Origin: Echinicola vietnamensis DSM 17526
Lineage (GTDB): Bacteria > Bacteroidota > Bacteroidia > Cytophagales > Cyclobacteriaceae
NCBI RefSeq assembly: GCF_000325705.1
Contig: NC_019904.1
Location: forward strand, 380,001-444,000
Direction: 5' to 3'
Length of the DNA stretch: 64,000 bases
In this document: in pieces, positions 24,776 through 39,515 of the stretch
Layout of the letters: every line of letters starts with the position of its first letter
How positions within the stretch are numbered: the first letter of the stretch is position 1
Translations under genes and position numbers: made by a program
The notes under the pieces: model-generated
Database searches by the model: none
Seen by the model: the letters and a program-made list of their open reading frames with translations, nothing else
What the model was told of the DNA's origin: nothing

Positions 24776-26185
24776 CATTGTTGTCCGGTAAACCCGGATA
24801 TTAGTTAAATTCAATTTTCAACCTCTTGATTACAAAGTGGTTATTTATTTTTCGTCAGGGGCAAGCCCCCCTCATCTCAGGGAACAGTGTGTTTTGATTT
24901 TTCAAAATATCTTCTTGTATGATGGCTCTCCAGCTTCCTTCCGGATCCTCCAGGAACCTATACAAGCTGATATAATTCATTAATTGCTGTCTGACCAGGG
25001 ATACCAAGTTGGAGAAAGCCCATTTCCTTTTGACCTGGCTTTTGATCAAGGTCAAAAGGAGATTGGCCAACATGGCCGACCATATCTGTATTTCTATGGC
25101 ATTTTCATTGTCGCCCAAGAAGTACTTTAAAGGGAAGTTCTGCTTAAGCTGTTTGAATAATAGCTCTATCTGCCAGCGTCTTTTATAGATGAGTGCTATC
25201 TTCTCTGCTGCCATCTCAAAATTATTGGTAATGAACTCAAACGGGCGTTCACTTTTGCTGTCCCAATAGGCTATTCTCCTGGAACGGTGCTCCTGTTGCT
25301 TGTTCTTGCCATATCGTAAGATGATTTCTTCATCCTTGAGTACTCCGGAATCTGCCTGATCAGGAATATTAAACTCCTTTCGGGCCTGATAGACAGCATT
25401 GTCTTTTAACCTGGTCACATACCATATCCCGCTTTCGGTCAGGACCTCATATTTTCCATAATCCACATATCCCTTATCAAAAGTGATGATAGAGCCCCCG
25501 GGCAGGTTGAAAACCTCATCCAGGAAGGTATGGTCATGTCGGACAGCCGCACTGTAACGGACAAGATAAGGAACATGGTCACTCGCCCTGATGATGGTGT
25601 GGGCCTTAATACCTCCTTTCTTTTTGCCCGTTTTAGGGTTCCTGCCTACTCCCTTGAGAATATCCTTGAACAGACTAATGGTGGTAGAATCCATAATATA
25701 GAGCCTCTTCATATCAGCATCCTTCAACCGGCTGTCCGTTAAACTGTCACCATGCCTTTGGTACACACTCATGTATATATCGGCGAACACATCGCTCACA
25801 CGTCGTTTGTTGGCTTCTGATAACGTACTCCGCCTTACCACATAGTTCAGACCCAAATGGGCCAATCTATGGGCATTGGCCAACAAACCGACAAGTGTCT
25901 CACGAATGGAATGATAGCCCTCAAATGCTACAAACAGCATTACTATCAAGTGGTTATAAGTCGTGAACTTCTTCACATAACGCTCCGCATTATGCCTGCG
26001 GGCTATCTCCCTTACCTCCCCCTTGTCAATGAACTTTATTAACTGATTGAATATCGGCTGTCCGCTAAAATTACTACTTTTGCCCATGGCTTAACTTTTT
26101 TGTGTCGTAACTCAAAAGTAGCCACAATGGGCTGGTTCAGCAATGGACTGGCCCTCTTTCATTTATTTTTTACCGGACACCAATG
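24776..26185 (-). mobile_element. IS4-family insertion sequence, about 1410 bp, intact
   Basis: The ends are 17-bp inverted repeats with one mismatch: CATTGTTGTCCGGTAAA at 24776 to 24792, and on the opposite strand CATTGGTGTCCGGTAAA ending at 26185. One transposase gene fills the interior. The flanking 9-bp direct repeats show it arrived by transposition rather than by rearrangement. It splits the membrane-protein gene of the restriction-modification operon. Confidence 0.9.
24855..26087 (-). CDS. IS4-family transposase
   Basis: This 410-aa protein shows the IS4 DDE layout: LYIMDSTTISLF with the first Asp, SIITFDKGYVDYGKYEVL with the second, and the Y-(2)-R-(3)-E-(6)-K element in YKRRWQIELLFKQLKQNFPLK. 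The N-terminal domain (GQPIFNQLIKFIDKGEV, then KFTTYNHLIVMLFVAFEG) is the DUF4372-like region common in Bacteroidota members. The gene is full length with no frameshift, so the element may still move. It is the only gene of the IS and reads in the same direction as the operon it interrupts. Confidence 0.93.
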   Translation of the reverse strand: MGKSSNFSGQPIFNQLIKFIDKGEVREIARRHNAERYVKKFTTYNHLIVMLFVAFEGYHSIRETLVGLLANAHRLAHLGLNYVVRRSTLSEANKRRVSDVFADIYMSVYQRHGDSLTDSRLKDADMKRLYIMDSTTISLFKDILKGVGRNPKTGKKKGGIKAHTIIRASDHVPYLVRYSAAVRHDHTFLDEVFNLPGGSIITFDKGYVDYGKYEVLTESGIWYVTRLKDNAVYQARKEFNIPDQADSGVLKDEEIILRYGKNKQQEHRSRRIAYWDSKSERPFEFITNNFEMAAEKIALIYKRRWQIELLFKQLKQNFPLKYFLGDNENAIEIQIWSAMLANLLLTLIKSQVKRKWAFSNLVSLVRQQLMNYISLYRFLEDPEGSWRAIIQEDILKNQNTLFPEMRGACP

Positions 26186-26194
26186 ATTTCTTTT
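26186..26194. repeat. right copy of 9-bp target-site duplication
   Basis: ATTTCTTTT matches the left copy at 24767 to 24775 exactly. Confidence 0.8.
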
Positions 26195-26518
26195 ATCGAT
26201 ATTCTCCAACAGCATAGAATAATCGATATCCATATCGATTTCATTGATTGTTTTTTCGTTGTATCTACTCGACAGGTAATGGGAGAATAAATTTAAAAAC
26301 AGCGTCAGTGCAAACAGCCCCCAGCCAAGAATAATGGTCCAAACGTAAACAGACTCCTTTAAAGGACTAATTTTATCAATAAAAGTGACCGTAAGACCAA
26401 GTGCCCCAGAGCTTATAAATGTTATGTATTTCTCAAAATCATCCTCACTTTTACTTTTCTGCTCTAAAATATACAGCCTATATTCCTTCCATTGATTTTC
26501 TTCCTCTTTTGTTTTCAT
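26186..26518 (-). pseudogene. 5' fragment of IS-interrupted two-region membrane protein gene
   Basis: This is the N-terminal 111 codons of a protein that starts 1 base inside the hsdS stop (TAATG). It has a charged helix (KTKEEENQWKEYRLYILEQK) and two hydrophobic helices (FISSGALGLTVTFIDKI; YVWTIILGWGLFALTLFLNL). The frame then enters the insertion sequence and ends after eight foreign residues at 26159. Rejoining it with 24665 to 24766 gives a 144-aa protein with further hydrophobic segments. I do not recognise a named family, but short multi-helix membrane proteins commonly sit beside type I restriction genes in Bacteroidota. The truncated form may still be made, without its last third. Confidence 0.8.
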
Positions 26519-27846
26519 TACACCACCTCCCTTTCATTTGGCTCCAATGCCTCCCTCAAAACCTGCTGCAAAAGCAATTCATTCTGCACTTGGCTTTCCA
26601 TGATACTGGCCTCCAACTGATCACAATACCCCATCAACTTATCTAGCTTGGCGACTATCCGTTGTTGTTCAGAAAGCGGGGGGATGGGAACATCTATGTC
26701 TCGAATTGTGCCCATTGACAAACTGGGCTGCGCTGTTGCTTTAACATGCTTAAAAATTTCATTTCTTCCATAAGGTGAGCTAAGAAAATAGTTCAAGAAT
26801 TTTAAATTGTAAAAATCTTCACATTCCTCGAATGGCTCTAATTTAGAAACATTGGGAGCTAAATGCCACCTTTCTTTCTCCCTGAACCTTGCAACATCAC
26901 CAATACCAGCGCCTATAAAAGTCACCAATAGGGATTCTTTTGTCAAAGCACACCTCCCTAATAGAAGACTTGTTTCCTTATCGATAAATAGTAGGTTTGT
27001 TTTATCTAATTCGAACGGTCGAACATTTTGAGCACGGACCACAGGAATTTCTCCAATCGTCTTGAAATTAATGTATTTAGTAAATTCAAAACCCGCAAGT
27101 TTAGTTACAAAAAAAATATCGCCAACCTTAATTGGCACCCATGAATTTGGTATTTCCCATTCATTAGCTTTTGAAACCGATTGACTTGATGCTTTCCCTT
27201 TTTTTAGTTTCTTCTCCCTAATCAACCTTTCTTTTTCCATCTTGATCTTCTCCAAAAGCACCGAAGCAGGTTCTTCATTTGGATCTTGTGGCACCAATTT
27301 ACCTTGCATGGCTTCCCGCAAAAAGGCTTGACGGAGTTGCTTCACCAAATCAAGTTGGTGTGTGAGTTCATCACTAAGATTTTTGCTTTTAGCCTCTAGA
27401 ATCCCATATTGTTCTACAAATTCTATTTGAACCTCAATAGGTGGAACAGGAATTTCAATTTTGGCAATTTCTTTCAATGGTAAGGTCACATTGGCCATAC
27501 CTTTCATTCTACTCACCAATTCATTTTCTCGATTCAGATCTAGATATCGAAATAGAAAATCTGCCCTAAGAATATCTTCATCATTTGGAATTACTGCACA
27601 GAGAATGTTGCCCACGGCAAACTTTCCGGATTGAAAATGTATCCGCTTTAAGCTTTTGTGACCATGTCCTGTTGATGAAACCAGAGGAATGATAACTGCA
27701 TTCCCCTCAAAATGGAATTCATTATGTGAAAGCCGTTCTTCCGCTGTTACCACTAAAGGATATTTACCTGGAACAGCTTTTTGAATTCCAATTTTGCCTT
27801 TTTGAATATTACAAAGCTCTCCTAATGTCTTCTTCGTCCAACTCAT
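26518..27846 (-). CDS. hsdS: type I restriction-modification specificity subunit
   Basis: The 442-aa protein has the two-half layout of HsdS: target recognition domain 1 (residues 1 to about 145), a central helical repeat (KLVPQDPNEEPASVLLEKIKMEKERL), TRD 2 (about 230 to 390), and a C-terminal conserved helix (SEQQRIVAKLDKLMGYCDQLEAS). Each TRD ends with the IPVPP/IPIPP motif seen at EIPVPPIEVQ and DVPIPPLSEQ. The subunit places HsdM and HsdR on a bipartite DNA site. The first four bases overlap the end of hsdM and the stop overlaps the next gene by one base. It is a single full-length copy with no second hsdS or recombinase nearby, so phase variation is not suggested. Confidence 0.94.
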   Translation of the reverse strand: MSWTKKTLGELCNIQKGKIGIQKAVPGKYPLVVTAEERLSHNEFHFEGNAVIIPLVSSTGHGHKSLKRIHFQSGKFAVGNILCAVIPNDEDILRADFLFRYLDLNRENELVSRMKGMANVTLPLKEIAKIEIPVPPIEVQIEFVEQYGILEAKSKNLSDELTHQLDLVKQLRQAFLREAMQGKLVPQDPNEEPASVLLEKIKMEKERLIREKKLKKGKASSQSVSKANEWEIPNSWVPIKVGDIFFVTKLAGFEFTKYINFKTIGEIPVVRAQNVRPFELDKTNLLFIDKETSLLLGRCALTKESLLVTFIGAGIGDVARFREKERWHLAPNVSKLEPFEECEDFYNLKFLNYFLSSPYGRNEIFKHVKATAQPSLSMGTIRDIDVPIPPLSEQQRIVAKLDKLMGYCDQLEASIMESQVQNELLLQQVLREALEPNEREVV

Positions 27847-29279
27847 TTTATCGCAGATCTTATATGACTTAGTAGTTCATGGCTTCTATCAAAAGAATCA
27901 TCCAACATGGTCATTAATTCAGAACTTGAATGTTCGATTTCTTCTTCCTGCTTGGTAGGGTTCTTAATATCTAAATCATAATTTCTGTCCTTAACAGTCT
28001 GAATATCCACCTTCCAACTCACCTCGCTTTCCTGTCGATCATTCCACCATTTTTTAATGGGGTCAAATTCCTTTACTTGAAGTGGTTTTGTTTTACTATA
28101 GCTTTTTTGCCCTTCCGGCAAGCGATGCTCATAATACCATATCTCTTTGGTCGGCTCACCTTTGGTAAAGAACAATAAATTCGTTGCCACAGTAGCATAA
28201 GGCTTAAACACGGAATTGGGTAATCGGATGATGGTGTGCAGATTACAATCGGTAAGCAGTTTTTCACGTACCCTTTGCTTTACACCATCCCCTGTCAAGG
28301 AACCATCAGGCAATACAATCCCAGCTCTACCACCCTGCTTCAGTAAATGCACCATCAGCACCAAAAACAGGTCGGCACTTTCCTTGGTCTTAAAATTCTG
28401 CGGAAAATTATTTTCGTTATTATTGGCCACGATACCGCCAAAAGGAGGGTTGGCCAGGATCACGTTAACCCTGTTTTTTTCGGTATAATTGCTCAGTGGC
28501 TGATCCAAACTATCACGGAAAGTGATATTGGGCACCTCCATATCATGCAAAATCAGGTTGGTAGTGGCCAGCAAATAAGGAAGCGGCTTGTACTCCCATC
28601 CAAACACGTTCTTTGCTATACTCTCCCTTTCTGCTACACTATTGGCCTGGCTTTTCAAATGTTCAATAGCTGCTGTCAAGTAACCACCTGTTCCACAGCT
28701 AGGGTCTAAAATCTTTTCCCCCAATTGTGGATTCATCATTTCACAGATAAACTCCGTAATGGCTCTTGGTGTGTAGAATTCCCCGCTTTTACCCGCACTT
28801 TGCAGTTCCTTCAAAATGGTTTCATAGAGTTCGCCAAATGCGTGGCGGTCTTTGGCAATATTGAAGTCTATTTCATTGAGCTTGTTCAATACCTTGCGGA
28901 GATTGATCCCGCTTTTCATGTAATTGTTATTGCCCTCAAACACCTCACGTACCAATAGTGCCCTTTGGTTGGCCAGGTCTTCGCTCATTCCCACCTTTAG
29001 GTTTCGAAGTGTAGGAAAGAGTTTCTGATCCACAAAAGCCTGTAATTCATCACCCGTAATCCCTTCATCATCCCCAGCCCATTCGTCCCAGTGAAACTCA
29101 GCAGGAATAGGGCTTTCGTAATCGTCCTTAATGACTTCCAGCTCCTTGTCCTTATCGGAGAAAATTTTCAGAAACAGCATCCACCCCAACTGTTCAATGC
29201 GCTGTGCATCACCATTCAGTCCGGTGTCCTGCCACATGATCTTGCGGATGCTATCTAATATTCCTTTTAAGTTGGCCAT
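27843..29279 (-). CDS. hsdM: type I restriction-modification DNA methyltransferase subunit
   Basis: The 478-aa protein has an N-terminal helical domain (about residues 10 to 140). The SAM-binding motif DPSCGTG is at residues 192 to 198, and the catalytic NPPF at 277 to 280 defines an N6-adenine methyltransferase. Further family features are GEFYTPRAITEF before motif I and GGRAGIVLPDGSLTG. It methylates the host copy of the recognition site and is a core part of the restriction complex. hsdM starts immediately after the stop of the rhuM gene and overlaps hsdS by four bases, so translation is coupled. Confidence 0.95.
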   Translation of the reverse strand: MANLKGILDSIRKIMWQDTGLNGDAQRIEQLGWMLFLKIFSDKDKELEVIKDDYESPIPAEFHWDEWAGDDEGITGDELQAFVDQKLFPTLRNLKVGMSEDLANQRALLVREVFEGNNNYMKSGINLRKVLNKLNEIDFNIAKDRHAFGELYETILKELQSAGKSGEFYTPRAITEFICEMMNPQLGEKILDPSCGTGGYLTAAIEHLKSQANSVAERESIAKNVFGWEYKPLPYLLATTNLILHDMEVPNITFRDSLDQPLSNYTEKNRVNVILANPPFGGIVANNNENNFPQNFKTKESADLFLVLMVHLLKQGGRAGIVLPDGSLTGDGVKQRVREKLLTDCNLHTIIRLPNSVFKPYATVATNLLFFTKGEPTKEIWYYEHRLPEGQKSYSKTKPLQVKEFDPIKKWWNDRQESEVSWKVDIQTVKDRNYDLDIKNPTKQEEEIEHSSSELMTMLDDSFDRSHELLSHIRSAIK

Positions 29280-30266
29280 TTATTTCTTCTTGTTTTTTAG
29301 CTGCTTGGCAGTCTTGTCAATATTTTCAATAAAATCTTTCTCGACTTGAGAAAGCTCATTTTTAGTTTTTTCTTTGAACTTCTCATACTCCGAATGGGCT
29401 TTACCCAGTGCCTTTTGATGGCTGATCTTACCCGCATGGGTCAATATTTCATTCCCAGTCATGGTCAAAAAATCATCCAGCCTGGATACCCAGTCCTTCA
29501 TATACATGGGCTTTCGGTTCATCGCCTGTAATTCTGCCATTTCGAGGTAAGCCGTAACGATCCTGTTTAGAATTTCCAATTCCTGCTCGTTCAGGTAATT
29601 CTTGGCTACCTCGGTCTCCTTTTTTGTGGGCTTTGCCCCCTTAAAATTAGTAAGCCCAAGATTTTTTTTACCGGCATCTATCCTTTTGTAAATTACTTCT
29701 GCCGCTGTGTTTCCATGTGCAGCCCAGTGCATTTTATTTTGTACCGTTTTGAAAAAAGTGGTAGAAATTTCGGTGTTGGGATCGTAGTCTATACTGGTAG
29801 CATAGATATCCAGAACCTTTCTCCAAAACACCTTCTCGGAAGATCTAATGTCCCGAATTCTGGCAAGAAGTTCATCAAAGTAGTTACCACCTCCGGCCTC
29901 TTTTAGGAGCTCGTCATTCATGGTAAATCCCTTAACGATGTACTCTTTGATTCTCGAGGTGGCCCATTTTCTAAACTGAACACCCCGATGAGATTTCACC
30001 CTGTATCCCACAGAAATGATGACATCCAGGTTATAGAACTTAACTGGACGGTCTGAACCACTAATGTGCAAAATCTGCACATTGCTTTTTTCGTCCAATT
30101 CTCCTTCTTTAAAAACATTCCCTATGTGCTTGGTGATCACACTTCTGTCCCGCTGAAAAAGGTCACTGATTTGTTCTTGGGTCAGCCAAACGGTTTCATT
30201 CTCTAATCGGGTTTGAATTTTGGTCTGCCCGTCTTCTGTTTGGTAAATTAGTATTTCCGAACTCAT
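29280..30266 (-). CDS. RhuM-family protein inside type I restriction operon
   Basis: The 328-aa protein begins with the RhuM pattern: IYQTEDGQTKIQTRLENETVWL, the helix-turn-helix-like LTQEQISDLFQRDRSVITKHI, then VGYRVKSHRGVQFRKWATSRIKEYIVKGF. Its second half is helical with a charged C-terminal end (KEKTKNELSQVEKDFIENIDKTAKQLKNKKK). RhuM was named in Salmonella as a virulence-linked gene. In many genomes it sits inside type I restriction operons, where its role is unknown. Here it lies between hsdR and hsdM with no gap, which makes a functional link to restriction very likely. Confidence 0.9.
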   Translation of the reverse strand: MSSEILIYQTEDGQTKIQTRLENETVWLTQEQISDLFQRDRSVITKHIGNVFKEGELDEKSNVQILHISGSDRPVKFYNLDVIISVGYRVKSHRGVQFRKWATSRIKEYIVKGFTMNDELLKEAGGGNYFDELLARIRDIRSSEKVFWRKVLDIYATSIDYDPNTEISTTFFKTVQNKMHWAAHGNTAAEVIYKRIDAGKKNLGLTNFKGAKPTKKETEVAKNYLNEQELEILNRIVTAYLEMAELQAMNRKPMYMKDWVSRLDDFLTMTGNEILTHAGKISHQKALGKAHSEYEKFKEKTKNELSQVEKDFIENIDKTAKQLKNKKK

Positions 30267-32722
30267 TAAGCTCCTGTATTATATAATTCTTGTTCCAATT
30301 CTTTTACGGCTTCTAAATATTTGGCTTTGCTTCCAAACTGCTTGATAATCTCCAAGGGGGAACCGTAATCCGTAAGCGGTTTGACCTTGAGGATATCCAT
30401 GCTCTCAATATTGGTCACTCCTTCGTCTGCATACTTGTCCAAAAGCGTCTCTAAGACTTTCCTGGCTTGGTCACCATATTTAGTGAAATAATCCCGCTTT
30501 TTAACATTATTGGCACGTTCCTTACGTGTGAGTGGGGGCTGCTCAAAAGCAACATGGCATATAAGATCAAAAAGATCAACCTCCCTGTTTACTGCATCTC
30601 GCAAAGCTTCCACCAAAACACCTTGTTCTTCCAGTTCCTTGATGATGATTTCTTTTTTGTCCGTACTGTTCCATCGAGCTAGGAAATCATCCAAGGATGC
30701 GTACTGACCTTTGATCAATTCTTTGGTATGGTCTTTTAGGCTGGTGGTAATGGGCTTTCCATTGGTGTCAAAATACATTTCACGGCTGATCAACACCGAT
30801 ACATCCACCCCATTCACGTACACTTTCTGACGGGGCTCATTGACTTTGCTGGTTCTTGTCTGCGGTTCGGGATAGCGAATCTTTGTTCCGATTTCTATCT
30901 CTTCCCCTGTCTCCTCGTCTATGATCAGGCTGTCAATGCTTTGTTCTTCATCAACGATATTGGTCAAATCGGTATCCTCTGAAACAGGTTTTACTCTTAT
31001 AGGGTCTCCATCAAAGTCCTTGTCGGCAAAAAGATCAGTAACATTTCGAAAATCCAGAATAGTAAAAAACATTTTGCCAAATTCCTCATTGATCCTGGTT
31101 CCTCTTCCTACTATTTGCTTAAACTTGGTCATGGATTTGATTTCCGCATCCAATACGATAACCCTACAAGTTTGGGCATCCACTCCGGTGGTCATTAATT
31201 CGGATGTAGTGGCTATCACGGGATATGTTTCTTCTGGATTGATAAAGTTGTCAAGCTCTCTTTTCCCTTCATCATTGTCTCCCGTAATCTGCATGATATA
31301 CTTGTGGTTCTTGGCCACTAAATCAGCATTCAGATTGGATAGGGCAAATCGCATCCGCTCAGCATGATCAATGTCCGAACAAAAAACAATGGTCTTGGCA
31401 AATCGGTCATAACCTTTCAAAAACTCAGTAAGCTTTCTAGCCACTGTTTGGGTTCGCTCATCGATGACCAGTGTTTTATCAAAGTCCTTCCGGTTATATA
31501 CACGGTCTTCCACTTCCTTGCCATCCTTATCCTTTTTCCCTTGCTCCGGCCGCCAGCCTTCAGCATCAACGTTCAGGTTGACCCGAACCACCCGATAAGG
31601 AGCCAAAAAACCATCATCAATCCCTTGTTTAAGGGAATAGGTATAAATCGGATCTCCAAAATATTCAATATTGGATACCTCTTTGGTTTCTTTGGGAGTA
31701 GCTGTCAAACCAATATGGGTCGCTTTATTGAAATAGCGAAGTATCTCCCGCCAGGCACTGTCCTCTTTGGCACTTCCTCTATGGCACTCATCTATGACTA
31801 TGAGATCGAAGAATTCAGGTGAAAAATCCTTATACGCATCTTCTATATCGCTGGCATTTGTCAATCCCTGATAAAGGCCCAGGAACACTTCATAGGCCTT
31901 ATCCTCTGTATCTATTCCCCTCTTATTATTACTTACAAGCTCTTCCTTTCCATCTGCCCTGCTCACCACCTTTTTTTTGATGATGGTCATCTTGTCTTTG
32001 AAATGTTTGAAATCCCCCCTTCTGGTTTGATCTATTAGGGCTGTTCTGTCTGCTAAAAACAGAATTCTCTTCTTTGCCCTACTTTTCCAAAGTCGGTGGA
32101 TGATCTGAAAAGCCGTGTAAGTCTTTCCCGTTCCGGTTGCCATGACCAGTAAAATCCTTCCTTGTCCATTTGCAACCGCCTCTACCGTTCGGTTTACAGC
32201 AATTTGTTGATAATATCTAGGTGACCTACCACTTCCGTCAAAATAGTAATCCTGTAATGCTACTTCTTGAGCCTCGCTTGTATGGATTCCTTTGTATTGT
32301 TTGTACTTTTTTAAAAGTTCTTCAGGACTTGGAAAGCTATCAATATCAAGTTCTGTCTCAATATTTCCGTCAGTGGCCGTCCGGTCATGGAAAACAAACC
32401 CGTCACCATTGCTACTAAAAACACATGGTATATCCAGGATTTCGGCATAGTCCAAAGCTTGTTGCAGTCCTGCCCTTACTGAATGTCTATTGTCCTTGGC
32501 CTCAACAATTGCAATAGGGATATTGGGTTTGTAGTATAGGATATAATCTGCTCTTTTTCTTTTTCCCCTTGCGGTAAGCCTTCCCCTAACATAGATTTTA
32601 CCATCTGTAAATGATACTTCTTCAAGTAACTGAGTGGTCTTGTCCCAACCCGCCTTTTCTATGGCAGGTGTGATGAATTTGGTACAAATATCACGTTCAG
32701 AAAGGGTTTTCTTGTCAATCAT
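30266..32722 (-). CDS. hsdR: type I restriction endonuclease/translocase subunit
   Basis: The ATG at 32722 gives 818 residues; a GTG two codons upstream is possible. An N-terminal PD-(D/E)xK nuclease is seen with Asp59 and EAK at residues 74 to 76. The helicase core has ATGTGKT at 195 to 201 and DECH at 311 to 314, followed by TATPKE, the later motif TTGVDA and the QIVGRGTR box. The layout and the C-terminal helical segment fit the EcoEI-type HsdR. It translocates DNA and cleaves unmethylated DNA away from the site. It overlaps rhuM by one base and begins 41 bases after the XRE regulator. Confidence 0.95.
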   Translation of the reverse strand: MIDKKTLSERDICTKFITPAIEKAGWDKTTQLLEEVSFTDGKIYVRGRLTARGKRKRADYILYYKPNIPIAIVEAKDNRHSVRAGLQQALDYAEILDIPCVFSSNGDGFVFHDRTATDGNIETELDIDSFPSPEELLKKYKQYKGIHTSEAQEVALQDYYFDGSGRSPRYYQQIAVNRTVEAVANGQGRILLVMATGTGKTYTAFQIIHRLWKSRAKKRILFLADRTALIDQTRRGDFKHFKDKMTIIKKKVVSRADGKEELVSNNKRGIDTEDKAYEVFLGLYQGLTNASDIEDAYKDFSPEFFDLIVIDECHRGSAKEDSAWREILRYFNKATHIGLTATPKETKEVSNIEYFGDPIYTYSLKQGIDDGFLAPYRVVRVNLNVDAEGWRPEQGKKDKDGKEVEDRVYNRKDFDKTLVIDERTQTVARKLTEFLKGYDRFAKTIVFCSDIDHAERMRFALSNLNADLVAKNHKYIMQITGDNDEGKRELDNFINPEETYPVIATTSELMTTGVDAQTCRVIVLDAEIKSMTKFKQIVGRGTRINEEFGKMFFTILDFRNVTDLFADKDFDGDPIRVKPVSEDTDLTNIVDEEQSIDSLIIDEETGEEIEIGTKIRYPEPQTRTSKVNEPRQKVYVNGVDVSVLISREMYFDTNGKPITTSLKDHTKELIKGQYASLDDFLARWNSTDKKEIIIKELEEQGVLVEALRDAVNREVDLFDLICHVAFEQPPLTRKERANNVKKRDYFTKYGDQARKVLETLLDKYADEGVTNIESMDILKVKPLTDYGSPLEIIKQFGSKAKYLEAVKELEQELYNTGA

Positions 32723-32763
32723 AATCACGCAATCAAAAAGGTCAAGTCAAACAAGGAAAATAA

Positions 32764-33048
32764 TTACTTGGCCAATTCCCCTTGTACAAAATTTAAGGCA
32801 TTCAAACCTTGTGGCTCTTGGTCAATATCATCTATAATCTTATCAGCCAACCAAAGCAGTTCCAGTTCTTTTTCATCTACCTCCAAAAAAGCTGCGATTT
32901 TTTTTAGCTGATTCTTTTGAGCCTTTCTCTCCCCTCGCTCCAGTTTACTGACCAAAGCTGTATCCGCTTCAATATAGGCCGCTACTTGTCTAAGTAGAAA
33001 ACCTTTAGCTTCTCTTAGCTCACGAATTCTTCTTCCCAAATAGGTCAT
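32764..33048 (-). CDS. XRE-family regulator at head of restriction operon
   Basis: The 94-aa protein has one Cro/C1-type helix-turn-helix at residues 5 to 60 (LGRRIRELREAKGFLLRQVAAYIEAD, then LVSKLERGERKAQ) and a short acidic tail with KIIDDIDQEP. Small XRE proteins before hsd genes often act as controllers that delay restriction until DNA is methylated. It is 41 bases upstream of hsdR on the same strand and has its own promoter-like box in front, so a controller role fits, by context only. Confidence 0.85.
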   Translation of the reverse strand: MTYLGRRIRELREAKGFLLRQVAAYIEADTALVSKLERGERKAQKNQLKKIAAFLEVDEKELELLWLADKIIDDIDQEPQGLNALNFVQGELAK

Positions 33049-33441
33049 AGGATACAGATTTAGGTTCTAAAATCCTTTACAAATCTATTATTATTTCTGA
33101 GACTTGTCAGAATTAGTCAAATATAAAAAATACCATGAAAATTAAACGTGTCACATTGGCCTTTTTCATATTTCAAGCTTTTTTAACGCTTAATAAATAA
33201 TTGACTGATTCAACAGAATAAACGAAAACTGTATTTGTTATATGAATTTTTAATTGATGGTTCTTCCGCTTTCAATCAAACTTAAAGAGAAATAACAAAA
33301 CCCATCATTTATCTGGGATCTTAATAAAACAGTAAATAGTTTTTGTACTACAAAGGAATTTCTATCAGCGAAGATGAAGCCTTTTAAATCCACCTCAACT
33401 TCTCACAAAATTTGGTAGGTAAAAAGTTATTTGAATTATAT
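33049..33441. other. AT-rich intergenic region between two minus-strand operons
   Basis: No supportable gene lies in these 393 bases. The end near 33080 carries the putative promoter of the restriction operon. A partly palindromic stretch at about 33104 to 33120 (TTGTCAGAATTAGTCAA) could be an operator for the XRE protein, but the symmetry is imperfect. Confidence 0.4.
33080..33087 (-). promoter_or_regulatory. candidate -7 box of restriction operon
   Basis: Read on the minus strand, TAGATTTG matches TAnnTTTG and lies 31 bases before the XRE start codon at 33048. A TTTG occurs upstream but at a longer distance than usual, so the -33 element is uncertain. Confidence 0.4.
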
Positions 33442-33768
33442 TTACTGGTCATTTTCACTTTGACTTTTCAAATAAAACAGCTTGTTCAACCCCTCATAAC
33501 CCTCCTCCGCCAACACCCTCAACTCTTCACCTAAACTGGAAATAGGATAATCCAGGCATCTATCCATATAGCCCATATAAGTATCTAAAAAATCATTCTC
33601 CAAATGCTCTGGTACTTCCATCAGCCGCTTGACCAAATCCATAATACCCAGATGATGTCGATGGCCGGCATCCAAGTCCAAATTATCCAAGCCCTTAACC
33701 AGCTGGTTATGCTTGAGATCTTGACGGATCAATTCTCTGATAAGCTCGTCATTTTGAATATTGATCAT
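33442..33768 (-). CDS. hypothetical helical protein
   Basis: The ATG at 33768 gives 108 residues; a TTG start at 33792 would overlap the previous gene by 8 bases and is less likely. The sequence is helical and acidic (DELIRELIRQDLKHNQLVKGL; GIMDLVKRLMEVPEHLENDFLDTY). I do not recognise the family. It lies 16 bases after the XRE gene on the same strand, so it is probably its operon partner. A toxin-antitoxin or regulator-partner pairing is possible but has no direct evidence. Confidence 0.6.
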   Translation of the reverse strand: MINIQNDELIRELIRQDLKHNQLVKGLDNLDLDAGHRHHLGIMDLVKRLMEVPEHLENDFLDTYMGYMDRCLDYPISSLGEELRVLAEEGYEGLNKLFYLKSQSENDQ

Positions 33769-33784
33769 AATGTTCTTATTAAGT

Positions 33785-34171
33785 TTAAACAATAGCCTCC
33801 TTTATCAGGCTTTTTAAAGTATCATTGCTGTCTTTGAGTTCTCGGAGTATCTCGATTAAGGTATCAAACTGGCTACCATCCATGAGAACTTTCCTTTTTT
33901 CGAGTTCATCAAAATACTCAATCAGTTGCCCTGGCCTTATGGTCAAAATATGAATGGGATCAACCTGCACATAATCGGCATATTTTTTAATCAGGTCCAC
34001 CGTGATTTTGGTTTCTCCACGTTCATATTTGGTATAGGCGGCCTCGCTGATTCCTAAATGAAAAGCCAGCTCCATGGCCTTAAGACTCCTCAGTTTTCTA
34101 AAGGTCATCATATTATGTCCTATTGATTGATTATCAAGGAGCGCTTCTTTAAACTGGCTTGGATCACTCAT
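33785..34171 (-). CDS. XRE-family regulator
   Basis: The 128-aa protein has a Cro/C1-type helix-turn-helix at about residues 20 to 75 (MMTFRKLRSLKAMELAFHLGISEAA, then YERGETKITVDLIKKYADYV). A helical tail follows (LMDGSQFDTLIEILRELKDS). It leads a small operon with the helical hypothetical gene. Regulators of this type are common in Bacteroidota mobile elements. Its target is unknown. Confidence 0.75.
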   Translation of the reverse strand: MSDPSQFKEALLDNQSIGHNMMTFRKLRSLKAMELAFHLGISEAAYTKYERGETKITVDLIKKYADYVQVDPIHILTIRPGQLIEYFDELEKRKVLMDGSQFDTLIEILRELKDSNDTLKSLIKEAIV

Positions 34172-35936: not shown

Positions 35937-37112
35937 TTAAATACTTCTACCCTTTTTCCGTCTCTTTTTTTTCTTCTTAGGAATTTGACCTACCTCCCCA
36001 GTATCAGGAACAGGCCTAAGCAGCAGATCAAGAATATCAATGGTACCACCAACAATTTGATGACTAAGGTAAATTTCTTTTCGATCTTTTGTTGCTGTTC
36101 GTGCTGGTATTGAAGCTCCATCTTTATCACCTCGAGTTTGGAATTCATTTTGATCCCGCACTGATAATTGGTCTCGATCTGATCGTTCAGTCTGTCCTGC
36201 TTTCTGCTGATGTGCAGGAGACTGTCCTGCATCTTGGGAATGTACCCCATGAACTCGAGTTGTTTTTTCATCATTTCCTGATAGCCCTCTTGGGTATTTT
36301 GATGTTGTTCTTGCGTTTGCCTGGCCAATTGCTTGGCGATCTCTAGTTTGCTCATAGTGTAAGGTATTTGCGATGTTCTTCCATTTGAATTGGTTACCCA
36401 AGGATTGTCCTTTGGCCTTGAAACCATCATAGCAATAGGCTACTCCTGATACCCTGCCGGTACTGGCCTGGTTGAACAACAGGTTGGCTCCTGAAGCCTC
36501 TACTTGATGGATAAAATCCTCAATGGTATTGGTCCGCTTTAAGGCCTCTGATATTATTTGCTGTAGCACCATTTTCTTTGAGGGTTTACCGGTTCTCATT
36601 ACCATTTCGATTTCATCCTTATTGGGCGCCTTGACTTTGGCCTCCTTGCTGCTCTTTACTTGCTGCAATCCATATTTCTTTTCCAGTTTTCGCACCAGGC
36701 TTTCACTTCTTCTATAATTGTTGCTATCTGAGACCACGGTTCCATCAAATCGGTTTCTCAGTGCCAACAAATGGCAATGGGGATGGTCGGCATCATGATG
36801 TCTGAAAATAAAATAGGCATTGTCATCGAATCCCATGCCTTTCAGGTATTCATTGCCTATGGCCAACATTTTATCATTTGATATTTTTTCCTCCTTGCCA
36901 AAGCTTAGACTGACATGATAAGTGTTCCGTTTTAGCCTGGGATTCATACTCTTCATCAGCTCTACTTCTTTCTTTACCATTTCCCTGTCCAAACTGGTGA
37001 AGTTGGTTTCCAGTACTTCCGCCCGTTTGCTTTCATCACTGGTCAGCATCTTTTTGAGATTATAATCCAGTGCTCCCATAAAGTTTTTGCCGATGGACTG
37101 TTTAGCGATCAT
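35937..37112 (-). CDS. MOBP-type relaxase (mobilization nuclease)
   Basis: The ATG at 37112 (MIAKQSIGKNF) gives 391 residues; an upstream frame to 37160 reads into mobC and is rejected. The relaxase motifs are the candidate catalytic Tyr17 in GALDYNL and the three-His metal motif HDADHPHCH at residues 106 to 114. The C-terminal third (from about 250) is polar and low in complexity, and a second gene lies inside it in another frame. The enzyme nicks oriT and leads DNA transfer with MobC. The start overlaps the mobC stop by 11 bases. Without conjugation genes nearby, the element would be mobilizable rather than self-transmissible. Confidence 0.88.
   Translation of the reverse strand: MIAKQSIGKNFMGALDYNLKKMLTSDESKRAEVLETNFTSLDREMVKKEVELMKSMNPRLKRNTYHVSLSFGKEEKISNDKMLAIGNEYLKGMGFDDNAYFIFRHHDADHPHCHLLALRNRFDGTVVSDSNNYRRSESLVRKLEKKYGLQQVKSSKEAKVKAPNKDEIEMVMRTGKPSKKMVLQQIISEALKRTNTIEDFIHQVEASGANLLFNQASTGRVSGVAYCYDGFKAKGQSLGNQFKWKNIANTLHYEQTRDRQAIGQANARTTSKYPRGLSGNDEKTTRVHGVHSQDAGQSPAHQQKAGQTERSDRDQLSVRDQNEFQTRGDKDGASIPARTATKDRKEIYLSHQIVGGTIDILDLLLRPVPDTGEVGQIPKKKKKRRKKGRSI
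35990..36355 (-). CDS. nested membrane-anchored coiled-coil gene within relaxase gene
   Basis: This 121-aa ORF starts ATG at 36355 (MSKLEIAKQLARQTQEQ) and lies wholly inside the relaxase gene, in a different frame, over relaxase residues 253 to 374. The product has a long helical region (KKQLEFMGYIPKMQDSLLHI, then LNDQIETNYQCGIKMNSKLEVIKMELQYQHEQQQKI) and one C-terminal membrane helix (LVIKLLVVPLIFLICCLGLFLIL). The relaxase frame is low-complexity there, while the nested frame looks like a true protein. Nested mobilization genes are known in ColE1-type plasmids (mbeB/mbeD inside mbeA), so a similar role is proposed by analogy only. Confidence 0.65.
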   Translation of the reverse strand: MSKLEIAKQLARQTQEQHQNTQEGYQEMMKKQLEFMGYIPKMQDSLLHISRKQDRLNDQIETNYQCGIKMNSKLEVIKMELQYQHEQQQKIEKKFTLVIKLLVVPLIFLICCLGLFLILGR

Positions 37113-37446
37113 GAAGCAGCAGTTTGATGACCTGGTCCAGTTTTGTAGAGATGGCGTCAATTGCCTTCATCCTGTCCGCTGGCACCTCAAATTTTGAATT
37201 GAGTTGTTTGGCTATCTGGTTGATATTATTACCAATTCTTTTGAGCTCCACATAAGTCTGTTTGTCCAGTTTGGGGACCTTCGCCTTGGGCAACCTGTTT
37301 TTGAACACGCAAGCCCTGACCACGTCAGCGGCCGGCATCGCTGCCACCTCGCATAAACTCCCCAGCAGCCGGACCTCTTCTTCGGTCATCCGGAAAGTAA
37401 ACTTTATATTTCTCTTCTGGTCTGCGGGTTTCTTTGGTCTTCCCAT
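37102..37446 (-). CDS. mobC: MobC-like relaxosome accessory protein
   Basis: The 114-aa protein opens with GRPKKPADQKRNIKFTFRM, a ribbon-helix-helix-type DNA-binding start. It has the MobC core EEVRLLGSLCEVAAM, then ADVVRACVF, and the conserved LKRIGNNINQIAKQLN. Its helical end is AIDAISTKLDQVIKLLL. MobC binds near oriT and helps the relaxase nick. It overlaps the relaxase start by 11 bases and reads the same way, with the large inverted repeat of about 37481 to 37531 just upstream. Confidence 0.88.
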   Translation of the reverse strand: MGRPKKPADQKRNIKFTFRMTEEEVRLLGSLCEVAAMPAADVVRACVFKNRLPKAKVPKLDKQTYVELKRIGNNINQIAKQLNSKFEVPADRMKAIDAISTKLDQVIKLLLHDR

Positions 37447-37547: not shown

Positions 37548-38087
37548 CTACCTTCGCATGCCAACGCTTTTTGACTTTCGATGGTAATCGTTTAGATCCT
37601 TATGCCCCAAATAGTTGCCCGATTGGTCAGTGCATTGGCTGAAGTCTTTCAACAATCTTTTTGTCCAGGCCTTGCCTTGTATATCGTTGTCAAGGTAAAG
37701 GTTGACCCGTGGAAATCCTGCCAAAATCTTCTTTGCCGCATCCATATTAGACAGGGAATTGAGAACTAAGAAGTCATCTGGCTTCACTTCTTTTTGGTTG
37801 CGCTCGTAGAAACTGAGCAGGTCAAAAATTCCTTCGAACATATGAAGGTTGTTGCCTTCTCCTGGATAGTAGCTAATACCCTGGGCACTGCTTCCTTTCC
37901 AATAGGCATTCCGAATGGCCCAGCCGTTCTCGTTCCTATTTCCGATCCCGAAATACTTTTTGTCCCCTATGGAATAATACACTTCCATACAGAATCTGGA
38001 TGCGGTCTCGACACTTACCTTCCGGTGAAGAAGGTAGTCCGTTAAGGTCGGATTGCTTCCAATGGCTTTTACCGACCGGATGGTCAT
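37548..38087 (-). CDS. toprim-domain half of mobile-element primase
   Basis: The 179-aa protein carries a toprim fold: HMFEGIFDLLSF with the first acidic residue and NLYLDND with the DxD pair. Between them is LVLNSLSNMDAAKKILAGF. It begins with TDYLLHRKVSVETASRFC, the linker region that in related proteins joins the zinc-finger part to toprim. This protein therefore matches the C-terminal part of Bacteroidota mobile-element primases. The ATG overlaps the stop of the upstream gene by four bases. It could be a separate coupled gene or the product of a frameshift in a formerly fused gene. Confidence 0.75.
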   Translation of the reverse strand: MTIRSVKAIGSNPTLTDYLLHRKVSVETASRFCMEVYYSIGDKKYFGIGNRNENGWAIRNAYWKGSSAQGISYYPGEGNNLHMFEGIFDLLSFYERNQKEVKPDDFLVLNSLSNMDAAKKILAGFPRVNLYLDNDIQGKAWTKRLLKDFSQCTDQSGNYLGHKDLNDYHRKSKSVGMRR

Positions 38088-38410
38088 TTTGGATCCTGTT
38101 CCTTTTCCATGGGTTCCTGTGGGTGAAAAGAAAAAGAGTTACCAGTAATATCTTCGATGTAATGAAGGGCATCGGAAACCGAAATGCCCGGTTTCAATTT
38201 CATGACCAGATCAAGGACCTTTCCGCCATAATTATTGTCCCCAAAATCAATCCATAGATTCTTGGAGGCACTGACCTTAAAGGAAGGTGTGTTTTCTTTC
38301 CTGTATGGGGAATGATAGAAATAACTGTCCCCTGAAATCTTTGATGGTTTGATGCCAAGCTTTTCCAGAAAACCAATAATGGAAAGCTCACTTGCTTGTT
38401 TGATGTTCAT
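38084..38410 (-). CDS. CHC2-like N-terminal half of mobile-element primase
   Basis: The 108-aa protein has the pattern LEKLGIKPSKISGDSYFYHSP, then ENTPSFKVSASKNLWIDFG, then GGKVLDLVMKLKPG. This corresponds to the zinc-finger-like N-terminus of DnaG-type primases in mobile elements, although the usual zinc-binding cysteines are absent. In most relatives this part is fused to toprim. Its end (QEPMEKEQDPK) is followed by the ATG of the toprim half in an ATGA overlap. Confidence 0.7.
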   Translation of the reverse strand: MNIKQASELSIIGFLEKLGIKPSKISGDSYFYHSPYRKENTPSFKVSASKNLWIDFGDNNYGGKVLDLVMKLKPGISVSDALHYIEDITGNSFSFHPQEPMEKEQDPK

Positions 38411-39044: not shown

Positions 39045-39515
39045 TTAAAGCCCTCCTTCATCAGCATAGGAATAATAGGATTCACTGGTAACAATTATAT
39101 GATCCAGAACCGGCAATTCCATCAATTTACCCAGTTTGACCATTCGTTCAGTCAAATTGTTATCGGCATTACTTGGGAATCTATTTCCAGAAGGATGGTT
39201 GTGGACCAAAATCATTCCTGAGCTATTCGATTTTACCGCAGCTGCAAAAATGATTTTTGGATCAGCAACAGTTCCAGAGGTTCCGCCCGTCGAGACATCA
39301 ACGACTCCAAGAACCCTGTTGGAACGATTAAGCAACATCACTTTAAACTGTTCTACGAACTGCAGTTTTGACTTATCCCAGTTTTCCAAAAGGACATCAT
39401 AGGCTTCTTTGGAAGAGGTGATTTTAGGGACTTGGGAGAGCTTGACTTTGGGCCGGTAACAAAGGACGATTTCGGCTACTTTGTTGGAAACGATGTTTTT
39501 GCTTTGGGTATCCAT
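39045..39515 (-). CDS. RadC-like JAB-domain protein
   Basis: The 156-aa protein has the JAMM motif HNHPSG at residues 105 to 110 with the later Asp118 in SNAD, and an upstream Glu in FVEQFKVMLLN. It lacks the N-terminal helix-hairpin-helix of chromosomal RadC, which is usual for the short form carried on mobile elements. RadC was once linked to DNA repair; the enzymatic role remains unproven. It lies at the far side of the mobilization block and is a typical accessory gene there. Confidence 0.88.
   Translation of the reverse strand: MDTQSKNIVSNKVAEIVLCYRPKVKLSQVPKITSSKEAYDVLLENWDKSKLQFVEQFKVMLLNRSNRVLGVVDVSTGGTSGTVADPKIIFAAAVKSNSSGMILVHNHPSGNRFPSNADNNLTERMVKLGKLMELPVLDHIIVTSESYYSYADEGGL

Follow-up and report, generated by a model that had tools for sequence, protein, structure and literature searches.

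The window, a stretch of 64,000 nucleotides from Echinicola vietnamensis DSM 17526, carries on its minus strand a gene for a MOBP-type relaxase of 391 aa (35937..37112; PF03432, E 2.6e-36). Upstream of it lies a gene for a MobC/NikA-like relaxosome protein (37102..37446, minus strand; PF05713 E 5.6e-15, PF21983 E 2e-10), which overlaps the relaxase start by 11 nt. Both features by which a MOBP relaxase was assessed, the PF03432 domain and an upstream MobC-like partner, are present. Entirely within the relaxase gene, in its +1 frame, a second gene of 121 codons (35990..36355, minus strand; ATG at 36355-36353, stop at 35992-35990) encodes a helical protein with a predicted C-terminal membrane helix and spans relaxase residues 253-374. 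A nested frame at this place had been claimed in the first-pass annotation, and both its coordinates and its overlap with the relaxase are borne out. The nested ATG is held in the Tyr-Glu codons TAT GAG of the relaxase motif Y253-E-Q-T-R-D258 (36339..36356, minus strand). The nested product begins with MSKLEIAKQLARQ and ends in a strongly hydrophobic stretch, where a membrane helix is predicted at about residues 101-119 (35999..36055, minus strand). The relaxase is read on past the nested stop into its own C-terminus with the basic run KKKKKRRKKGRSI (35940..35989, minus strand), where normal codon evolution returns. The nested frame occurs three times in the genome (copies 100, 88 and 83% identical), each time open and within a relaxase. 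A fourth, distant relaxase of the same genome (L041; 31% identical, 407 codons, basic C-terminus) and its counterpart L040 in a relative contain no nested membrane ORF.

The genes flanking the relaxase suggest an integrated mobile element: primase-like, RadC and regulator genes lie to one side of it, a type I restriction system to the other. A Toprim-like ORF (37548-38087, minus strand) and an overlapping CHC2 zinc finger ORF (38084-38410, minus strand), both primase-like, and a gene for a RadC-like JAB protein (39045..39515, minus strand) probably belong to the same element. The restriction system comprises HsdS (26518-27846), HsdM (27843-29279) and HsdR (30266-32728), and a DDE transposase gene is found at 24855-26087. 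A RhuM-family gene sits between HsdM and HsdR, as part of the cargo beside the mobilization genes (24855-33792).

The best 19-residue window at the C-terminus of the nested protein has a mean Kyte-Doolittle (KD) hydropathy of 3.21, and AlphaFold2, run with a 22-row alignment, predicts a single unbroken helix over residues 3-120 (mean pLDDT 94.1), including the putative membrane segment. This model is compatible with a coiled-coil stalk followed by a C-terminal anchor, but a single helix is by itself no proof of a coiled coil. Of the earlier description of the product as a coiled coil with a membrane anchor, the helical character and the predicted C-terminal membrane helix thus stand, and the coiled coil does not follow from the AlphaFold2 model. 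The relaxase tail that overlaps it is polar (26% hydrophobic residues vs 38% in the rest of the relaxase), and no invariant column is left past residue 266 in a 9-sequence alignment. The tail had also been described as low-complexity, which its entropy does not support: it is 3.91 bits vs 4.04 bits for two stretches of equal length elsewhere in the relaxase, and no 12-residue window falls to 2.2 bits or below.

Related relaxase loci were collected from Bacteroidota genome records (59 loci), from one viral contig found by the relaxase-alignment search, the only such contig among the relaxase matches, and from the own genus (8 loci). In these 68 loci, a locus was scored as positive by script when a nested +1 ORF had a hydrophobic helix close to its end. 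The nested ORF was found in 52 of the 68, in genera that include Algoriphagus, Belliella, Anditalea, Pedobacter, Parapedobacter, Mucilaginibacter, Chitinophaga and Chryseolinea. It is free of internal stops in 51 of these 52 loci; the exception, L080, is a more distant copy in which the relaxase is open and the nested frame has one stop. In all 52 the nested stop precedes the relaxase stop, by 35-77 nt. Nested-frame stops next to an intact relaxase were also looked for specifically in close homologues, and none was seen: the eight own-genus loci, with relaxases 56-100% identical to that of the window, are all open in the nested frame. The same genus also has a 5'-truncated remnant (L008/L022), in which the end of the nested frame is open and the relaxase frame has two stops.

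In fourteen of the 68 loci the relaxase is open and the nested gene is absent; eleven of these relaxases are shorter (329-353 aa), and L079, L089 and L090 have about 390 aa. The two remaining loci, L046 (stops in both frames) and L081 (ambiguous bases and a frame change), were excluded from these state counts. The relaxases of L085-L088, from four different metagenome-assembled genomes, are identical in their tails and motif codons, through either a recent transfer or a binning mix-up. In a relaxase tree of 78 rows, built by a quick method and with long branches, the nested gene occurs in both main Bacteroidota subclades, the Bacteroidota rows without it fall in a few places inside one subclade, and a minimum of 6 changes is needed over the whole tree. 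We read the absences as losses, often accompanied by shortening of the tail. Among 14 more distant relaxases (27-32% identical) of the relatives, to which L041 of the E. vietnamensis genome itself was counted, no fully nested membrane ORF was found, L029 not being properly judged.

The nested frame could be open merely because the polar relaxase tail happens to leave it so. The overlapped relaxase codons were therefore shuffled synonymously. In 5000 shuffles of the window locus (L012), the nested frame acquired a mean of 3.7 stops; it was fully open in 0.8% of them, had a hydrophobic end (KD 2.0 or more) in 0.04%, and combined both in none. Across 50 of the 52 positive loci (L013 and L101 left out), 0.5-4.5 nested stops were expected per locus and none was observed, with the limits that these loci had been chosen for an open frame and a hydrophobic stretch and that L080 was scored only downstream of its nested stop. 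In contrast, 11 of the 14 loci without the nested gene (duplicates L086-L088 left out) have 3-7 stops in the +1 frame, where 3.3-5.7 are expected. An open +1 frame alone is less telling, as it arises in up to 57% of the shuffles of one locus (L055). Conversely, when the nested proteins are taken as given, 2.9-10.6 stops are expected per locus in the relaxase frame, and none is found in any of 50 positive loci (L013 and L080 left out of this test).

Codon positions point in the same direction. In the non-overlapping part of the relaxase, codon position 3 is the most variable. Within the overlap, relaxase position 1, which is the wobble position of the nested frame, is more variable than position 3 in 10 of 10 sets with the nested gene, whereas the flip is seen in neither of the 2 sets without it, where evolution is of the ordinary single-frame kind; pairs within a set are not independent. 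When seven sets are pooled, the switch sets in at the nested ATG and ceases at the nested stop. The five 20-codon bins before the ATG have a relaxase position-3 divergence of 0.245-0.422; it is 0.06-0.15 inside the overlap and 0.367 after the nested stop, in the relaxase end where position 3 is again the fastest.

Substitution classes were counted per opportunity in 15 pairs of the own genus. Within the overlap, changes that are silent in the relaxase and alter the nested protein occur at 0.064, changes silent in the nested frame that alter the relaxase at 0.203, changes that alter both at 0.091 and changes silent in both at 0.444 (few sites). In relaxase residues 1-240, silent changes occur at 0.325 and amino acid changes at 0.053. 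The synonymous sites of the relaxase, for which the first-pass annotation had proposed a comparison of both frames in relatives, are thus constrained in the overlap (0.064 vs 0.325). Three further sets gave 0.054 and 0.182, 0.058 and 0.236, and 0.144 and 0.288 for relaxase-silent/nested-changing and nested-silent/relaxase-changing substitutions respectively. In the overlap, constraint is strong on the nested protein and weak on the relaxase tail, and the nested frame is the better conserved of the two. Together, the shuffles, the codon positions, the substitution classes and the openness of the relaxase frame with the position-3 pattern of its end demonstrate, at the level of sequence evolution, that both frames are protein-coding and kept by selection.

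A chance ORF is ruled out by the synonymous shuffles and the codon-position tests, given the signature of selection and the stop-ridden control loci, and we consider such an origin of the frame next to impossible. The suppression of synonymous change in the relaxase would be produced likewise by a constraint on DNA or RNA, such as an origin of transfer or an RNA structure, with no protein made. The signal is codon-periodic, however, with relaxase position 1 fastest and position 3 slow, and neither the missing stops nor the hydrophobic end would be expected of an RNA element. The codon-position tests contradict this explanation, to which we assign a negligible probability.

As the relaxase motif Y-E-x-x-R-D partly forces the nested N-terminus, conservation of the N-terminal motif was rejected as stand-alone proof and the wobble choices were examined instead. 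The nested ATG is formed by relaxase Tyr-Glu codons (TAT GAG or TAT GAA), and the Tyr codon is TAT in 52 of 52 positive loci, where the ratio of TAT to TAC in the first 240 codons of the same relaxases is 256:205. This would have a probability of 5e-14 if the trials were independent, but the loci are related. TAT is also found at this Tyr in 12 of 16 loci scored as lacking the nested gene, and three cyanobacterial relaxases without it have TAC at the motif Tyr. In Pseudomonadota, the nested product starts with M-[ST]-K-x-E in 9 of the 11 loci read, several of which are closely related; ColE1 and pDN1 are the exceptions. In the GC-rich L102, this N-terminus relies on the codon AGA, which is absent from the first 225 relaxase codons. 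A Shine-Dalgarno-like word, from a pattern list of our own making, precedes 10 of 11 nested starts in Pseudomonadota and 2 of 50 in Bacteroidota; the sequence before the Bacteroidota starts is rich in A (45%). Bacteroidota generally depend little on Shine-Dalgarno sequences.

A similar arrangement is known from plasmids of Pseudomonadota. ColE1 mbeB (PF04837) lies in the +1 frame of mbeA, a MOBP relaxase gene, and takes its ATG from the TAT GAG (Tyr-Glu) codons at MbeA residue 230; its product has a polar, helical-looking stretch and then a single hydrophobic helix. Unlike the Bacteroidota proteins, MbeB starts with MSNLL, without K-x-E, and has a long part beyond the membrane helix, and ColE1 has a second nested gene, mbeD, annotated with mobilization/exclusion. 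The IncQ-type MobB proteins (PF17511; L102, L136 and pDN1, L120) are likewise encoded in the +1 frame of a relaxase gene and have a membrane helix. Those of the IncP-6-like plasmids L102 and L136 share the Tyr-Glu start, with the N-terminus MSKTE, and that of pDN1, nested in a MOBQ relaxase, starts at the His-Glu of HERDR in the +1 frame. They differ in their size (136-167 aa, with residues past the helix), in the upstream Shine-Dalgarno-like sequence that is usually lacking in Bacteroidota, and in the continuation of the relaxase frame into a RepB-type primase. The codon-position flip was also found in the known MobB pair L102/L136, which served as a positive control; it is seen in a trio of small plasmids too, with a weak rise of position 3 after the nested stop.

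The nested gene of the window agrees with MobB in position, being out of frame in a relaxase gene and starting just past the conserved relaxase domain, and, as a prediction from hydropathy and the AlphaFold2 helix, in its C-terminal membrane helix. It agrees with MbeB in being nested in a MOBP relaxase in the +1 frame, with its ATG in Tyr-Glu codons. Its assignment to either family, PF17511 MobB or PF04837 MbeB, is nevertheless ruled out, as neither profile matched any of 36 Bacteroidota-type nested proteins. In the controls, PF17511 matched L102 at 3.7e-13, and PF04837 matched one of the 8 proteins of a Pseudomonadota set that includes ColE1 MbeB, at 3.6e-22. A profile comparison of the 36 Bacteroidota-type proteins with these 8 gave a probability of 15.7, with homology undetectable beyond the N-terminal M-x-K-x-E. 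The nested protein of the window matched nothing at E 0.001 in a protein-database search and nothing at E 1 in a tblastn search of plasmids, and Pfam and PHROGs searches of the nested proteins gave scattered weak matches only.

The same start site is used in ColE1 mbeB, in pDN1 mobB and in 10 of 10 Pseudomonadota relaxase relatives examined. The latter belong to 18 plasmid relatives picked by hand, and hence not at random, from 553 matching records; the nested gene was found in these 10, all from Pseudomonadota and with L102 and L103 identical in this region. Six others (L108, L109, L113, L114, L115 and L117) lack it by the hydropathy filter, and L116 was not scorable, its relaxase frame ending early. 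The codon pair and frame coincide with annotated MobB in the IncP-6-like plasmids and with unannotated or 'hypothetical' ORFs in Enterobacter, Klebsiella, E. coli, Aeromonas, Komagataeibacter and Marinobacter plasmids, where the second residue is Asp or Val in a few. The relaxase-nested +1 membrane ORFs of three enterobacterial plasmids of 4.4-4.9 kb (L105, L111 and L118) are missing from the gene tables, as is that of Marinobacter. A possible cyanobacterial case is a Gloeobacter plasmid relaxase (L119, 2267-3376), in which a +1 ORF begins at His-Glu codons (CAT GAA) and the open segment runs for 370 residues with a hydrophobic stretch near its end. Overlapping mobA, mobB and mobC genes of MOBP5 type are described for the Paracoccus plasmids pMARC2 and pAES4 (PMC3832669). 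A word search of the accessible text of a 2025 review of type IV secretion systems returned neither 'MbeB' nor any word starting with 'Bacteroid' (PMC12857230).

Small membrane proteins also accompany a different relaxase family (the L024 family), scanned at 14 loci of genomes from the same order, presumably Cytophagales (L126 included, L125 and L127 left out). In 9 of them (L122, L123, L124, L128, L130 and L132-L135), a gene for a predicted coil and membrane helix begins 1 base before the relaxase stop. In L024 itself, where the relaxase frame has 257 codons, the membrane gene begins 20 nt before the stop in the +1 frame, and in L129 it lies 35 nt downstream of the relaxase; the remaining three loci have no such gene or, in L126, no relaxase. 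These tandem genes resemble the nested one in encoding a small, relaxase-adjacent protein with a predicted coil and then one membrane helix; they differ in being non-nested, in the long tail past the membrane helix and in sequence. Tandem order, short overlap and full nesting form a graded series, which suggests that the relaxase may have grown over an older membrane gene.

MobB of RSF1010/R1162 is associated with the membrane and improves transfer as an accessory protein, and IncQ-type MobB raises mobilization and contacts the relaxase or the coupling protein at the membrane. By analogy, we think it likely that the nested genes form a Bacteroidota family of relaxase-nested membrane proteins that act like MobB/MbeB and anchor the relaxosome, and whose origin is probably shared with mobB/mbeB. 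The product would be a helical, possibly coiled-coil protein, with its N-terminus inside the cell and a C-terminal tail anchor, that binds the relaxase or relaxosome and keeps it close to the type IV coupling protein at the inner membrane; such tethering could raise mobilization efficiency as MobB of RSF1010/R1162 does. That the protein inserts into the membrane, forms a coiled coil and binds the relaxase is predicted, and the tethering of the relaxosome, already suggested in the first-pass annotation, is plausible. The nested membrane protein might instead be real and serve another purpose, such as entry exclusion, donor-cell signalling or a pore- or toxin-like activity, since small proteins with a coil and one helix are versatile and the mbeD gene of ColE1 bears its exclusion annotation. 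Its being locked to the relaxase in 52 of 68 loci, the recurrence of a coil and membrane-helix gene after 9 of the 14 scanned relaxases of the other family and the mobilization names borne by its positional counterparts argue against such a role, which we regard as improbable.

A common origin with the Pseudomonadota mobB/mbeB genes is less certain than the proposed action, and is suggested because frame, start codon and, mostly, the N-terminal M-x-K-x-E coincide. The gene had earlier been taken as a possible independent example of the ColE1 arrangement; ColE1 mbeB and the IncQ/IncP-6-type mobB genes start in the same frame at an equivalent codon pair, and it is probably no independent invention, although no sequence homology was detected. 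The shared start could nonetheless be convergent, because an ATG arises easily at Tyr-Glu/Asp codons and 12 of the 16 loci without the gene use TAT as well. In that case a MobB/MbeB-like gene specific to Bacteroidota would have arisen separately at the Tyr-Glu/Asp end of the relaxase domain, which readily yields an ATG in the +1 frame. The undetected homology (profile probability and family matches alike), the ATG at this site in relaxases without a nested gene, and the lack of a nested membrane ORF in the Bacteroidales, Persicobacter and 3 of 4 cyanobacterial plasmid relaxases examined all speak for a separate origin. The shared frame and codon pair, the Pseudomonadota M-x-K-x-E starts, spelled with rare codons in GC-rich plasmids, and the presence of the gene in both main Bacteroidota relaxase subclades speak against it, and we hold a separate origin to be possible but rather unlikely. 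The common-origin reading can be carried further, to a single ancient overlapping pair that predates the split of the Bacteroidota and Pseudomonadota relaxases, possibly that of MOBP and MOBQ, with its start in a Tyr/His-Glu/Asp..Arg-Asp motif and with a relaxase tail that, its basic terminus aside, would be largely a by-product of the nested protein. We propose this extension tentatively, giving it slightly less than an even chance.

With the nested gene, a Bacteroidota mobilization system gains what is probably its missing membrane component, of a kind that automatic annotation tends to overlook because it lies wholly within another gene. The pair is also a clean example of a full overlap that has lasted long, with selection measurable on both frames and the inner one better conserved. 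The common start site unites MbeB, MobB and the Bacteroidota family under one rule that can be tested on other relaxases. If the ancient pair is real, a whole family of mobilization proteins would be hidden within relaxase genes.
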